Positions 46,886 to 50,992 of a DNA stretch of 64,000 nt are shown piece by piece (within the stretch, counting starts at the first letter, position 1; each line of letters starts with the position of its first letter). The stretch lies in assembly GCF_000422345.1 (NCBI RefSeq), contig NZ_AULP01000006.1:1-64000 (forward strand). Direction: 5' to 3'. The translations under genes were made by a program, and so were the position numbers. The DNA comes from Neomelitea salexigens DSM 19753. Its GTDB lineage: Bacteria > Pseudomonadota > Gammaproteobacteria > Pseudomonadales > Spongiibacteraceae. The notes beneath the pieces are model-generated. The model was not told the DNA's origin and did no database searches. It worked only from the letters and a program-made list of their open reading frames with translations.

Positions 46886-46981
46886 GCCCTGTCCATTCAG
46901 CTGGTGATCGAAACGCTCGTTCATATCGTACGCGTTGACGGTAAACAATTATAAAACCGTGTACGTAATCGAGGTGATATT

Positions 46982-48523
46982 ATGGGTTCCCCTGTCAAAA
47001 GTAGCCTGGCACTAGCTGTGCTCGGGACTATATTTAGTTCCCAAGTCCTAGCGTCAAGCCACCGAGAAGCGCCGTTCATAGCGTCTTCTCCCAAGGTTGA
47101 CGGTACTGACTTCTACATGTTCCGCAGCTACGAGGCTGGGCGTGACGGGTTCGTGACGTTGATCGCCAATTATCAGCCACTTCAAGACGCCTACGGCGGC
47201 CCTAATTACTTCACTATGGACCCACAAGCGCTCTATGAAATTCACATAGACAATAATGGCGACGCTGTTGAGGATCTGACGTTTCAGTTCCAGTTCAGTA
47301 ATGCCTACGGCCAAGCATCAGCGGCAGGGCTGATTGATGCGGGTAAGGTTAAAACCGGTGAGGACGATCAGGGCAATGACATTTTGGTACAGGTCCCGTT
47401 AGCCGCAGTTGGAGGTGGCAGCGGCACGAGTACGGGATTGCTGAATGTCGTAGAGACTTTCTCTGTGGAGCTGGTTGCCGGACCACGCCGCAGTGGTAAC
47501 GCGACGCCGGTTTCGAACCTGGCTGACGGGTCTACAAGCTTCGCAAAGCCGGTAGACAATATCGGCAACAAGACCATTCCTGACTACGAAGGCTACGCCT
47601 CGCAATTCGTATACGATATTAATATTCCCGGGTGCATGTCTCCGGGCAAGATGTTTGTCGGCCAGCGCCAAGAAGGGTTTGTTGTAAACCTAGGGCAAGT
47701 CTTTGACCAAGTGAATCTTAACCCTCTGGGTGCTAGAGACAGTGCTTCAAATACTATTGGCGATAAAAACGTAACGTCGCTGGCGCTCGAACTGCCGATC
47801 AGTTGTGTGACCGCTGGCAGCGAAGCCGTTATTGGTGCCTGGACAACGGCAAGTAAGCCGCAGGCGCGACTGCTGAACTCCAAGCCCGTCGGGCCGACAG
47901 CCTCGGCCAATGGGCAGGGACCCAGTGTGGAAGGTGGTGCCTGGACTCAGGTGTCTCGCCTGGGTAGCCCGCTAGTCAATGAGGTGGTCATCGGGATCAC
48001 GGATAAAGACAAGTTTAACGCCAGCCATCCAAAAGATGACGTTGAAAACTTCGGCGCTTATGTTTTGTATCCCACGCTACCAGTCCTGGTAGATGTTCTG
48101 TTCCCCGGAGCTACTGTCGTACCCGACACACCGCGAAGCGATTTGCTAGCGGCATTCGTGACCGGTGTTAATGGCTTGAATCAAGCAGATTCCGCACAGC
48201 CAGGCGAGATGCTTCGCTTGAATACCGCGATCGCGCCTACGGCGTTAGTGAGTCAGGGGGAGTTGGGCTTTTTGGATTGTGACTTAGCGGGTTTCCCGAA
48301 TGGGCGCCGCCCGGTAGATGATGTCGTTGACATTGCTTTAAGTGTTGCCGAGGGCGCGATTACCGGGGCCAACCCCAATGGTTTGCAGACTTGCGACTTG
48401 TCAGGGGCGGCACCGGTGGTCGTGAATGCTGGCGCCGTTGTCAATGACGGGGCGAAGCCTGACCGCTTTGATTATCTCGGCGGTTTCCCCTATCTCGCTA
48501 CGCCCATTGCGGGTTCACCCTGA
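46982..48523 (+). CDS. DUF4331 domain exported protein
   Basis: A 513-residue protein with a signal peptide ending QVLA, so that the mature chain begins SSHREAP. This beginning, followed by KVDGTDFYMFRSYE and YGGPNYFTMDP, is the signature of DUF4331 (PF14224), predicted beta-rich, of unknown function. A calcium-like loop HIDNNGDAVED is near residue 88. It is the first of four genes that appear to form a cassette with a lipoprotein, a repeat protein and a HupE-like membrane protein. The start ATG 46982 has GAGGTG upstream. Periplasmic or extracellular location is inferred from the signal peptide. Confidence 0.85.
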   Translation: MGSPVKSSLALAVLGTIFSSQVLASSHREAPFIASSPKVDGTDFYMFRSYEAGRDGFVTLIANYQPLQDAYGGPNYFTMDPQALYEIHIDNNGDAVEDLTFQFQFSNAYGQASAAGLIDAGKVKTGEDDQGNDILVQVPLAAVGGGSGTSTGLLNVVETFSVELVAGPRRSGNATPVSNLADGSTSFAKPVDNIGNKTIPDYEGYASQFVYDINIPGCMSPGKMFVGQRQEGFVVNLGQVFDQVNLNPLGARDSASNTIGDKNVTSLALELPISCVTAGSEAVIGAWTTASKPQARLLNSKPVGPTASANGQGPSVEGGAWTQVSRLGSPLVNEVVIGITDKDKFNASHPKDDVENFGAYVLYPTLPVLVDVLFPGATVVPDTPRSDLLAAFVTGVNGLNQADSAQPGEMLRLNTAIAPTALVSQGELGFLDCDLAGFPNGRRPVDDVVDIALSVAEGAITGANPNGLQTCDLSGAAPVVVNAGAVVNDGAKPDRFDYLGGFPYLATPIAGSP

Positions 48524-48543
48524 ATAATACGAGGACTTTACCT

Positions 48544-48762
48544 ATGAAAAAGCGACTCGTAATAGCAATTATGGCGGCAGCGGTGTCGGCGTGCTCACTT
48601 GACGACGACGGTGATGGACCCGCGCAAGCCAAGCGCGATGGCGTCTTTGCTGTCACTTTTGCACAGGCCTTTTCTCAGGAGCCGAATGACGCGCCTGTGG
48701 AGGTCAACGATATTAAGCCTGAAACACTGGATAAGCAGTCTTTCGACGGCTTTATTCGCTAG
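48544..48762 (+). CDS. Small lipoprotein of the DUF4331 cassette
   Basis: 72 residues: a signal peptide with lipobox VSAC (C17), then an acidic Asp-rich stretch SLDDDGDG and a short polar tail. Ser at +2 suggests outer-membrane sorting. No family is recognised. It begins 20 bases after the DUF4331 gene and is followed at once by a terminator, so these two genes may be transcribed more strongly than the next two. Confidence 0.72.
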   Translation: MKKRLVIAIMAAAVSACSLDDDGDGPAQAKRDGVFAVTFAQAFSQEPNDAPVEVNDIKPETLDKQSFDGFIR

Positions 48763-48781
48763 CCAGTCTACGGGCAGGCAT

Positions 48782-48804
48782 GGGCAGCTAGGCTGCCCTT
48801 TTTT
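48782..48804 (+). terminator. Terminator inside the DUF4331-HupE cassette
   Basis: GGGCAGC-TAG-GCTGCCC followed by six T, 20 bases after the lipoprotein stop and 18 before the repeat-protein start. Either the end of a two-gene unit, or a partial stop lowering expression of the downstream pair. Confidence 0.88.
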
Positions 48805-48821
48805 ATTATTGAGTAAATAAT

Positions 48822-49928
48822 ATGAAAGGACTCATCCTTACCGTTTTTATTGGGGTTTTTAGCGCGAGTCTTTACGCCTTTCCAGAGGTGTCCTGGCCCG
48901 CGCCGAGTACTGAATTAATTAAAGTTGAGGCTAAGCCTGAGTCTGTGGTCAGTGCGGATAGGTCGCCCGCAGAGCTGCTGGCCTTAGTGGAAAATTATCT
49001 CCAAGAATACCGACGAGAGGGTAATCCTCGGCGCCTGGGCGAGGCCAGCGCAGTATTAGCCAAGCTAGACACTTCGACTGGTCTTTCCCCTCTTCTAAAA
49101 TGGCGATTTCACTTTTTAAAGGCTCAAATCGCCGAGAGTCTTCATAAGTTCAACGAGGCTCAGAAAGGTCTCGATAGGGCCGTGCAAGCGCTTCGCGACG
49201 TCAGTGAACTTGAGGTCAGCGCCCAGTATGAGCAAACGTTGCTTGCCCTCATGAACCTGGCCGTTGTGAGAGGCGAATACGATGGCGCGAAAGCGCATTG
49301 TAAGCAACTGGGCGTCGTCAGCCCGTCGTTGTATTCCCAAGCATGCCGCGAATACTTGCGTGGACTTACCAGTGATATTGAACAAGCTTTCGAGGCGCTG
49401 CAGGGGCTCGTAAGAGCAAAAATGCTGCAAGGCACAGGCCCCCAATTACACTGGTCATTGGTCAGCCTAGCTGACTTGGCTGACCGAGGCCGTCGAGCAG
49501 ATGCGCTCGCGCTCTGGCGCTCCGCCGCTGCGCTGTTGCCGGATGATCAATACGCGCGTGGTCGTTTTTGCCTTGCGGCATTGCAGCAGCGCGAGTACGC
49601 GTTGGTACTGGATATCAGCGAGGGAGCGCTCTCAGATGGCGTACTCACTTGTCGGGCGGTCGCGCTAAAGAGTCTGGCAGCAACCAATGAAGCGGATTAT
49701 ACAAAGCAGTATTTACAGTTGAAGGCGGAACTCCTCGAAAAATTTGAGGATGCTCAGTGGCGTGGGGAGCGGCTCCACAAGCGCGCTTACGCGCATTTTT
49801 TGCTCGATGTTGTAGAGAAGCCGGACATGGCTTTGCGTGTTGCTAGCAGCAATTGGCAAGAGCAGCGTGAGTGGCCGGGCGAGCAGTTACTGGCGCGCAG
49901 TCGGTCGGCAGTGGGAGCACAACAATGA
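48822..49928 (+). CDS. Exported helical-repeat (TPR-like) protein
   Basis: A 368-residue protein with a signal peptide cleaved after SLYA, then alternating helices suggestive of TPR or Sel1-like repeats (for example ARSVLAKLDTS-type helices near 80-110 and LVENYLQEYRREGNPRRLG at 54-72). The repeats are too diverged to assign individually by eye. It starts just after the internal terminator and overlaps the hupE-like gene by 4 bases. It is probably a periplasmic partner of the membrane protein. No known family was recognised beyond the repeat character. Confidence 0.7.
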   Translation: MKGLILTVFIGVFSASLYAFPEVSWPAPSTELIKVEAKPESVVSADRSPAELLALVENYLQEYRREGNPRRLGEASAVLAKLDTSTGLSPLLKWRFHFLKAQIAESLHKFNEAQKGLDRAVQALRDVSELEVSAQYEQTLLALMNLAVVRGEYDGAKAHCKQLGVVSPSLYSQACREYLRGLTSDIEQAFEALQGLVRAKMLQGTGPQLHWSLVSLADLADRGRRADALALWRSAAALLPDDQYARGRFCLAALQQREYALVLDISEGALSDGVLTCRAVALKSLAATNEADYTKQYLQLKAELLEKFEDAQWRGERLHKRAYAHFLLDVVEKPDMALRVASSNWQEQREWPGEQLLARSRSAVGAQQ

Positions 49929-50992
49929 GTCGATGGCTTGTTCTCTTTCTTTGCTTTGCCAGTACCAGCTTATTTGCGCATAAAAATAGTGACAGTTATC
50001 TGTATATCGCTTCGGAGCAATGGCGGCTCGATATTGCCGTGGAAGATTTGCAGCGGATTTACAATCTAGATACAAATCCGGTGGATGGGCGGGTGACGGC
50101 CAAGGAGCTTCGCGGTGCGGAGGCGGGGCTTGAGGCGTCTATTCTGAAAGGCATCCGCGTGACGCGAGAAGGCGGGGGTTGCCCCCTCGACTTGCAACGC
50201 CTGGGTGTGGCGAGCCACAGCGGCGAGTATTATGCCGTGTGGGAGCTTAAGTCACCTTGCTTCTCTGAACCGGAAAGGCTGACGCTGAATTACGACTTAC
50301 TCTTTGATGTCGACCCACTTCACAGGCTGCTCTACCGAAATGATGTGGCAGAGCAGCCGCAACTCGGTGTACTGACACCTTCTGAAAGAGCCCTGGGTAT
50401 ACAGTCTCATGGGCCCTGGGCGACCGTAACGGCCTTCTTCAAGGAAGGCGTTCTGCACATGGTGTTGGGCTACGACCACCTTCTCTTTTTGTTGGCCTTG
50501 CTATTGCCTTTGGTAAAGGCATCCTCCGGAGATGAGTCGCTTAGACCGTTGCTATGGCGCTGCGCAGGCGTCGTGACGGCTTTTACGGTGTCTCACAGTA
50601 TTACGTTATCTGCAGCAACCCTCGGGTGGTGGCAGTTGCCTATCCAGCCTGTTGAAATAGTCATCGCGTTATCAATAAGCGTCGCGGCGTTGGCCGCTTT
50701 GGTCGGCGAACACCATCGCTATCAATGGCAGCTGGCGGGGGCGTTTGGGCTCATTCACGGATTTGGTTTTGCCAGTATGTTGGCCGGGTTAATGGATGAG
50801 GGCAGCAGTGCTGTTCTGGCATTAGCCAGTTTCAATATTGGTGTGGAGGCTGCGCAATTAGCTGTAACGGTGGCTCTGGTGCCTCTTCTCATGTACTGCC
50901 AGAAAAAGCCCCTTTATAGCCGCTGGGTGTATCCCGCTGTATTACTTGCGGTTGCCGCCATAGGTTTGTGGTGGGCGTGGCAACGTGTTTAA
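49925..50992 (+). CDS. HupE/UreJ-family (HupE_UreJ_2) membrane protein
   Basis: A 355-residue protein. The signal peptide ends SLFA, so the mature chain begins with His (HKNSDSYLYI). The periplasmic domain (to about 160) has an EF-hand-like loop LDTNPVDGRVTAKE (D49, N51, D54, E61). Then come about six transmembrane helices with the family histidines in GYDHLLFLLALLLPLV, VSHSITL and LIHGFGFASM. HupE and UreJ proteins are thought to import nickel or cobalt, but the metal here is unknown and no urease or hydrogenase gene is nearby. Start ATG 49925, not the in-frame upstream ATG at 49871. Confidence 0.85.
   Translation: MSRWLVLFLCFASTSLFAHKNSDSYLYIASEQWRLDIAVEDLQRIYNLDTNPVDGRVTAKELRGAEAGLEASILKGIRVTREGGGCPLDLQRLGVASHSGEYYAVWELKSPCFSEPERLTLNYDLLFDVDPLHRLLYRNDVAEQPQLGVLTPSERALGIQSHGPWATVTAFFKEGVLHMVLGYDHLLFLLALLLPLVKASSGDESLRPLLWRCAGVVTAFTVSHSITLSAATLGWWQLPIQPVEIVIALSISVAALAALVGEHHRYQWQLAGAFGLIHGFGFASMLAGLMDEGSSAVLALASFNIGVEAAQLAVTVALVPLLMYCQKKPLYSRWVYPAVLLAVAAIGLWWAWQRV

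Follow-up and report, generated by a model that had tools for sequence, protein, structure and literature searches.

A DUF4331-lipoprotein-TPR-HupE gene cassette with a predicted Ang-like domain in its permease and a possible role in copper or nickel handling in the bacterial envelope

Copper and nickel binding via an N-terminal histidine has been established experimentally for two protein families, HupE_UreJ_2/Ang and DUF4198 (PMC12537917). The Ang-1 domain of the anglerases binds copper with a Kd of 74 nM and nickel with a Kd of 220 nM, and the secreted nickel-binding protein DUF4198 (IsDUF4198, 9GCB) has a Kd of 18 nM for nickel (PMC12537917). In RbAng-1a (9GCE; PMC12537917), a signal peptide is followed by a mature His1 and by a beta-rich periplasmic domain that is fused to a HupE_UreJ_2 permease. 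The passage of PMC12537917 that refers to Brito 2010 describes the HupE_UreJ family as nickel permeases, and the Rhizobium HupE-type permease (PF04955) as hydrogenase-linked. The neighbours of the Ang HupE proteins were mostly given as proteins of unknown function in that 2025 study, and the string "DUF4331" is absent from its main text (Nat Commun 2025; PMC12537917). For DUF4331 (PF14224) itself, we found no paper among 5.39 million papers of the open-licence literature, and a literature search with IPR025566 did not return any papers either.

The locus described here is part of the window, i.e. the whole stretch of 64,000 nucleotides that was analysed, in the Spongiibacter genome of a marine bacterium. 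As stated in the original prediction, four consecutive genes at 46982-50992 encode exported proteins; all are on the + strand, and predicted signal peptides can be read from the sequence in all four of them. The identities proposed for the genes hold as well: the DUF4331 gene (46982-48523; 513 aa) matches PF14224 with an E-value of 2.1e-132 (442.8 bits at a cut-off of 27) over profile positions 1-421 of 421, the small lipoprotein gene (48544-48762; 72 aa) encodes a lipobox with a predicted lipidated Cys17, the exported TPR-like protein (48822-49928; 368 aa) has profile relatives at other DUF4331 loci, and the permease gene (49925-50992) matches PF13795 (HupE_UreJ_2) with an E-value of 2.9e-42. 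The permease frame already opens with a GTG at 49871; this start was discarded in favour of the ATG at 49925 because the latter agrees with signal cleavage at A|H and overlaps the stop codon of the TPR-like gene (ATGA).

Of the described systems, the anglerase is the one that this HupE resembles most closely. The AF2 model of HupE (pLDDT 92) has as its top Foldseek match the copper-bound Ang-1 domain 9GCE, with an E-value of 4.1e-4, a probability of 1.00 and a TM-score of 0.49 by target for the beta-sandwich, and a sequence-profile search of the PDB with HupE did not detect 9GCE. The next-best matches are the periplasmic zinc-binding proteins ZrgA and PA4063, which differ in being encoded in other operons and in lacking a permease fusion. 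The N-terminal domain is accordingly predicted to have an Ang-like fold, and its His1 would be a candidate copper ligand. As in RbAng-1a, this domain follows a signal peptide and precedes the permease: the presumptive mature His1 (H19, codon 49979-49981) is invariant in 44/44 sequences, the preceding A18 at the inferred cleavage site is present in 42/44, and the further invariant residues are H178, D184, H185, H224, E244, H278 and E308, with the transmembrane HupE/UreJ permease domain and its invariant His, Asp and Glu residues being encoded at 50435-50905 (+ strand). Unlike RbAng-1a, the protein adds two invariant cysteines, a fixed DUF4331-lipoprotein-TPR context and an EF-hand-like loop in the periplasmic domain, DTNPVDGRVTAKE (50069-50107, + strand), in which D49 and E61 are invariant among the 44 sequences and which carries a one-residue insertion as compared to 43/44 of them. 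The idea that the cassette is undescribed must be given up for this part, a 2025 paper having described its type of N-terminal domain under the name of Ang-1 anglerase. The Rhizobium HupE-type permease has a related membrane domain, but no Ang domain. The absence of urease genes near HupE, which had been noted before, extends to the whole genome, as no urease alpha subunit was found in a genome-wide search; a urease accessory operon was therefore discarded.

The DUF4331 protein has a predicted signal peptide (residues 1-24) and a predicted mature N-terminus, SSHREAP (47054-47074, + strand), that is invariant in 101/101 homologues. Judged from the sequence, its histidine at mature position 3 would form an ATCUN-type Cu(II)/Ni(II) motif. 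The underlying cleavage A-x-A|SSH satisfies the -3/-1 rule in 97% of the 101 homologues, and the alternative site ASS|H, which would expose a His1, does so in 99%. Divergent family members retain SHH or SDH at this place (L095, L099, L096), and the SDH of L096 favours the histidine at position 3. DUF4331 also contains an EF-hand-like acidic loop, DNNGDAVED (residues 90-98; 47249-47275, + strand), five of whose nine residues (D90, N91, G93, E97, D98) are conserved at the level of at least 90% in an alignment of 65 homologues. Both the N-terminal histidines and the EF-hand-like loops are hence found at the two ends of the cassette, as had been proposed.

The lipoprotein was identified by its signal peptide and lipobox (...AAVSA|C17), the LPAM_1 model giving just 11.7 bits, which is under its cut-off. 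Its C-terminus carries a linear motif (...PVEVND...SFDGFIR), and the relatives share the pattern F.sFv..l....T.EPv.iN...F.d.d..aFddLL. An open reading frame with a lipobox follows DUF4331 at 91/102 loci as compared to 21/300 control genes (7%), and on these sequence grounds the DUF4331-lipoprotein gene pair is the conserved core of the cassette. In the Alteromonadales, members of the lipoprotein family have an inserted Ig-like domain. Between the lipoprotein and the TPR-like gene, there is an intrinsic terminator or attenuator, GGGCAGCTAGGCTGCCC-TTTTTTATT (48782-48798, + strand); comparable terminators were seen in this gap at 37/90 loci but in only 7/450 shuffled gaps. The TPR-like protein itself reaches only sub-threshold TPR matches in a single-sequence Pfam search, and its relatives in Bacteroidota and Streptomyces are clear TPR proteins by Pfam (L109/L110). 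It has two invariant cysteines (160, 175), and profile relatives are encoded at 81/101 DUF4331 loci, including those of Actinomycetota and Bacteroidota.

Our survey of the four families revealed a conserved gene order in distant bacteria, in support of the original prediction. In the less biased sample, 398 genomes of Pseudomonadota only, HupE is located on the same strand within about 4 kb of 12 of the 16 full-length DUF4331 genes, the TPR family co-occurs with DUF4331 in 13/14 genomes (Fisher p 9e-21), and the TPR and HupE genes are adjacent in 14/14. For other phyla, the sample consisted of plasmid records plus the 80 best-scoring genome loci, and these counts are biased towards near relatives. 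From these sequences, the cassette is a true conserved unit, far beyond chance, and its variants support the proposed link to metals: the partners that alternate beside DUF4331 come from the copper- and nickel-binding families HupE_UreJ_2/Ang and DUF4198. Thus, Planctomycetota have the order DUF4331-lipoprotein-DUF4198, in Streptomyces (Actinomycetota) the order is DUF4331-TPR-NicO with the nickel-type transporter NicO in the HupE slot, in Bacteroidota a TonB receptor accompanies DUF4331-TPR, and in the divergent locus L095 DUF4331 and DUF4198 are followed by a HupE_UreJ protein of the classical nickel-permease family (PF04955). DUF4198 is found beside DUF4331 at 8/101 loci, which lack TPR-HupE at that place. 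The two proteins are alike in that DUF4198 also has a mature N-terminal histidine and TonB receptors as neighbours (PMC12537917); they differ in family and size, and DUF4198 is missing from the window operon. At some DUF4331 loci (Rhodobacterales; G015, G309, G323), both TPR and HupE are missing.

A second described system to which the locus can be compared is the RpoE(RpoE2)-ChrR/ECF11 singlet-oxygen regulon. An ECF-type promoter, GTGATCGAAACGCTCGTTCATATCGTA (46904-46930, + strand), precedes the start codon of DUF4331 by 51 bp; at 46905-46930 it reads TGATCg-N16-CGTA and matches the consensus TGATC.-N16-CGTA given in the sections consulted of PMC5507510 and PMC4336711, where the DUF4331 operon is not named as a member of the regulon. 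The promoter is present in 9/9 Spongiibacter/Zhongshania sequences (L001, L004-L009, L011, L012), and the strict pattern occurs in 11/101 regions upstream of DUF4331, where Markov-shuffled sequences gave 0.34 on average. The genome encodes an ECF sigma factor and ChrR (L128, 3188-3742 and 3742-4416; Cupin_7 1.9e-11 for ChrR), and this operon is preceded by the same element, TGATCC-N16-CGTA (L128:3135). The other intergenic matches include genes of the ECF11 regulon type (ybgA-like, FAD oxidoreductase), the ybgA-like gene being preceded by the same element. A scan for sigma-70 promoters yielded nothing above chance. The DUF4331 operon is thus probably under ECF sigma control. The cassette can no longer be regarded as self-contained: in addition to this likely control, the loci of many relatives come with their own sigma/anti-sigma pair (ECF/RskA) and with a TonB receptor (a search of the genome studied here found neither RskA nor this receptor), and DUF4331 is embedded in type II secretion loci on five plasmids, a linkage seen in Rhodobacterales only. 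The genome studied here has secretins and a type II secretion operon, with pseudopilin, GspE/GspF-like and secretin genes lying together in L131.

We tentatively suggest, at somewhat less than even confidence, that the operon encodes an ECF-sigma-controlled envelope system for the capture of transition-metal ions, copper and/or nickel, the identity of the metal and the biochemistry of DUF4331 being what we infer. In Spongiibacter, the operon would be induced through RpoE-ChrR, the sigma factor that responds to singlet oxygen and oxidative stress. DUF4331 would be exported, the type II secretion system probably serving to release or display it, and bind the ion partly via its free N-terminus (NH2-Ser-Ser-His). 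With its conserved C-terminal peptide, the co-transcribed lipoprotein may tether DUF4331 to the membrane or dock it there, and the periplasmic TPR-like protein may pass on the ion or organise the components. Finally, the Ang-like His1 domain of HupE would accept the ion and deliver it inward through the His/Asp/Glu channel in the membrane. Import via HupE cannot be the whole function because some loci lack TPR and HupE, and because in L044 and L046 the permease part has been lost. A bolder extension, which we regard as doubtful, is that DUF4331 serves widely as a protein "metallophore" that leaves the cell by type II secretion. Under ECF control, it would bind copper or nickel outside the cell in photo-oxidative stress, its N-terminus being of the ATCUN or His type. 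It would have its own peptide partner, held by a lipid anchor, and the way into the cell would differ between families, be it a TonB receptor, the TPR protein, an anglerase or a NicO permease. We came across no published account of a pathway of this kind.

The components might also serve protection rather than nutrition. They would then bind copper or nickel that is freed in the envelope during photo-oxidative damage, with HupE or NicO removing or redistributing the metal. This possibility, unlikely but deserving attention, agrees with the stress-type promoter (ChrR here, ECF/RskA in relatives), with the resemblance of the Streptomyces NicO to the efflux protein RcnA, the model of which it matches under the curated cut-off, and with the Ang domain being kept alone on one membrane helix in L044/L046. 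On the other hand, the TonB-dependent receptors, belonging to one family, at 20/101 loci suggest uptake, the HupE_UreJ family has been described as nickel permeases (PMC12537917), and the genes that flank the operon in the window include no recognisable heavy-metal efflux gene or metal repressor.

It is rather improbable, in our estimate, that DUF4331 works outside the cell as a metalloenzyme or redox protein, for which TPR and HupE (or DUF4198, or NicO) act as metal-loading or maturation factors and the lipoprotein as a membrane anchor. Enzymes are the typical cargo of type II secretion systems, the alignment of the 65 homologues contains numerous invariant columns, including the clusters DGTDFYMF and PNGRR, and many charged residues, which could signal an enzyme, and there are DUF4331 loci without TPR/HupE. 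Moreover, the terminator is consistent with DUF4331 and the lipoprotein forming a transcription unit of their own, as would fit an expression above that of the accessory genes. However, the AF2 model of DUF4331 (pTM 0.86; disordered N-terminus with pLDDT <50) matched no solved fold in the PDB at E<=1e-3, a PDB sequence search gave spurious matches only, and Pfam and NCBIfam contain no known catalytic family for the protein besides the DUF. That four unrelated exported genes are adjacent by chance, as the lack of any link between the families in single-sequence Pfam might suggest, is extremely improbable and was discarded, being contradicted by the co-occurrence survey with its gene order conserved across classes and phyla, the association of TPR with DUF4331 and the constant TPR-HupE adjacency.

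DUF4331 is an uncharacterised family that is present in many bacterial groups. Its links to the Ang-type permease, DUF4198, NicO, the lipoprotein, type II secretion and two kinds of ECF stress regulators provide a testable function both for this family and for the Ang HupE proteins. Such a function would tie singlet-oxygen stress to the handling of copper and nickel in the cell envelope.

The four genes at 46982-50992, all on the forward strand, form a conserved unit. They encode the exported protein DUF4331 (PF14224; 46982-48523), a lipoprotein of 72 amino acids (48544-48762), an exported TPR-like protein (48822-49928) and a protein of the HupE_UreJ_2 family (49925-50992). Since the start codon of the HupE gene overlaps the TPR stop codon as ATGA, these two genes are probably translationally coupled. 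A clpB-like gene lies upstream, and a convergent DUF4124-like gene followed by an acetolactate synthase-like gene lies downstream, all named by reading the sequences. In the closest named genome, Spongiibacter marinus, DUF4331 is 95% identical. The original prediction had taken the four families for a possible envelope metal system, and a survey of their co-occurrence bears out that they belong together: Among 101 DUF4331 loci, a set biased to near relatives, the TPR family is found within 6 kb in 81 and the HupE family in 73, and 64 have the same-strand downstream order TPR, HupE. Across 398 Pseudomonadota genomes, a sample with less bias, full-length DUF4331 is present in 16, with HupE_UreJ_2 on the same strand at about 4 kb or less in 12 of these cases. 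The TPR family (E below 1e-30) occurs in 14 genomes of this sample, 13 of which have DUF4331 (Fisher p 9e-21), and its distance to HupE is 0.5-0.7 kb in all 14; one genome (G019) has the pair without DUF4331, and in another (G246) the pair stands apart from DUF4331.

The lipoprotein is a core partner of DUF4331: At 91 of 102 loci, DUF4331 is followed by an ORF for a small lipoprotein, as compared to 21 of 300 control genes, and the Rhodobacterales retain it in the absence of TPR and HupE. The mature lipoproteins vary in length and composition and have the C-terminal pattern F.sFv..l....T.EPv.iN...F.d.d...aFddLL in common, which is kept in Alteromonadales despite an inserted Ig/cadherin-like domain. 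A terminator-like hairpin follows the lipoprotein gene at 37 of 90 loci, in the window at 48782-48798, but only 7 shuffled gaps out of 450 contain one; thus, DUF4331 and the lipoprotein are probably a higher-expressed unit with read-through to TPR-HupE.

The sequence SSHREAP directly follows the DUF4331 signal peptide in all 101 homologues. The -3/-1 pattern (A/V/S/T-x-A) predicts cleavage before SSH, leaving NH2-Ser-Ser-His, which we take to be an ATCUN-type Cu(II)/Ni(II) motif; an alternative predicted cut between ASS and H would give His1. Divergent members carry SHH and SDH instead. The EF-hand-like loops described earlier are indeed conserved in both end genes, DUF4331 and HupE. The first 33 residues of the DUF4331 model are of low confidence, and no solved relative of the fold was found in the PDB by sequence or by fold. 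DUF4331 is embedded in a cluster of type II secretion genes on five plasmids of Rhodobacterales (Jannaschia, two Sulfitobacter, Paracoccus, Marinovum); four of them have an annotation for the small gene downstream of it, which an ORF search recovered on the fifth. A type II secretion operon is also present in the window's genome (locus L131), and we infer that DUF4331 is a substrate of this system.

Among PDB folds, the HupE model (pLDDT 92) best matches 9GCE, a HupE/UreJ-2 Ang-1 domain with bound Cu, and next the zinc-binding ZrgA/PA4063. The defining feature of Ang, a histidine immediately after the signal peptide, is present in 44 of 44 proteins, and H178, D184, H185, H224, E244, H278 and E308 are invariant in the membrane part. 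Ang-1 binds Cu at 74 nM and Ni at 220 nM, and DUF4198 binds Ni at 18 nM (PMC12537917); the main text of that paper does not mention DUF4331. In Litorivivens and a Spongiibacteraceae MAG (L044:12179-12859, L046:12667-13338), the HupE slot is occupied by a protein that has lost the permease part and consists of an Ang-like domain and one membrane helix at its C-terminus. The window's genome encodes a second HupE_UreJ_2 with a mature N-terminal histidine (WAHKLAPS; G000:C3:228706-229164, L003/L084:8185-9288), downstream of a 327-aa exported/membrane-type gene amid acyl-CoA metabolism genes and without DUF4331 or TPR.

The unit extends to other phyla with exchanged partners, and every swapped-in partner belongs to a Cu/Ni-type protein or transporter family. 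In three Streptomyces loci (L109, L121, L124), a NicO 'nickel transporter' stands in for HupE alongside DUF4331 and TPR, Bacteroidota (two Adhaeribacter plasmids) have a divergent TonB receptor, DUF4331 and TPR, and Planctomycetota and some Proteobacteria have DUF4331, the lipoprotein and DUF4198. At L095:6674-9198, a divergent DUF4331 forms a compact operon with DUF4198 and the classical nickel permease HupE_UreJ, with a small cupin after them; this operon is possibly a nickel version of the system. One Adhaeribacter TonB receptor (L122:5139-7402) is annotated as two pieces and is probably a broken copy. Class F sortase genes adjoin DUF4331 in the Streptomyces loci, suggesting that cell-wall anchoring replaces the lipoprotein; fasciclin and DUF4394 are nearby.

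An unbiased count of 6-mers upstream of DUF4331 (101 sequences) revealed TGCATC in 52 sequences versus 11 expected, where it opens the element TGCATC[C/T]-N15-17-CGT[A/T], located some 60-80 nt ahead of the gene start. An ECF sigma gene accompanies DUF4331 at 51 loci in all and an RskA-type anti-sigma gene at 46, and adjacent pairs are common in relatives with this element. Spongiibacter and Zhongshania instead have GTGATC-N17-CGTA (9 of 9, one with N18), which corresponds to the RpoE-ChrR promoter TGATCC-N16-CGTA, as given in PMC5507510, and likewise to the Shewanella RpoE2 promoter in PMC4336711. RskA is absent from the window's genome, which encodes an ECF sigma factor and ChrR in an operon with a perfect TGATCC-N16-CGTA. 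Genome-wide, the pattern matches 19 times, versus 5 for the reversed control; intergenic matches include a ybgA-like gene and a FAD oxidoreductase (named by reading the sequence), both of RpoE-ChrR-regulon type. Because of the ChrR-type promoter, the genome's own ECF-ChrR pair and these co-matched genes, the operon can, from sequence, be placed probably in the photo-oxidative stress regulon. In a planctomycete, a ChrR-type cupin anti-sigma gene (L062:8607-9587; Cupin_7, 2.9e-21) is directly divergent from DUF4331. In the window's genome, a TGATC-N17-CGTA element (G000:C4:231044-231069, L151) lies 44 bp before the start of a TonB-dependent receptor gene, a candidate for co-regulation.

TonB receptors at 20 of the 101 loci and the permease family favour import as the direction of transport, whereas the probable stress control of the operon, the RcnA-like NicO of Streptomyces and the retention of the Ang domain alone on one helix in L044 and L046 favour export or buffering. 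Alternatively, DUF4331 may be an enzyme with its partners as metal-loading helpers. Ang-1 HupE, DUF4198 and ECF11 are already known; neither the assembled system nor any role of DUF4331 was found in the open-licence papers searched. Most likely, the operon is a stress-controlled secreted Cu/Ni-binder system: DUF4331 would be the secreted binder, the lipoprotein would tether it, and TPR and the Ang-type permease would serve it.
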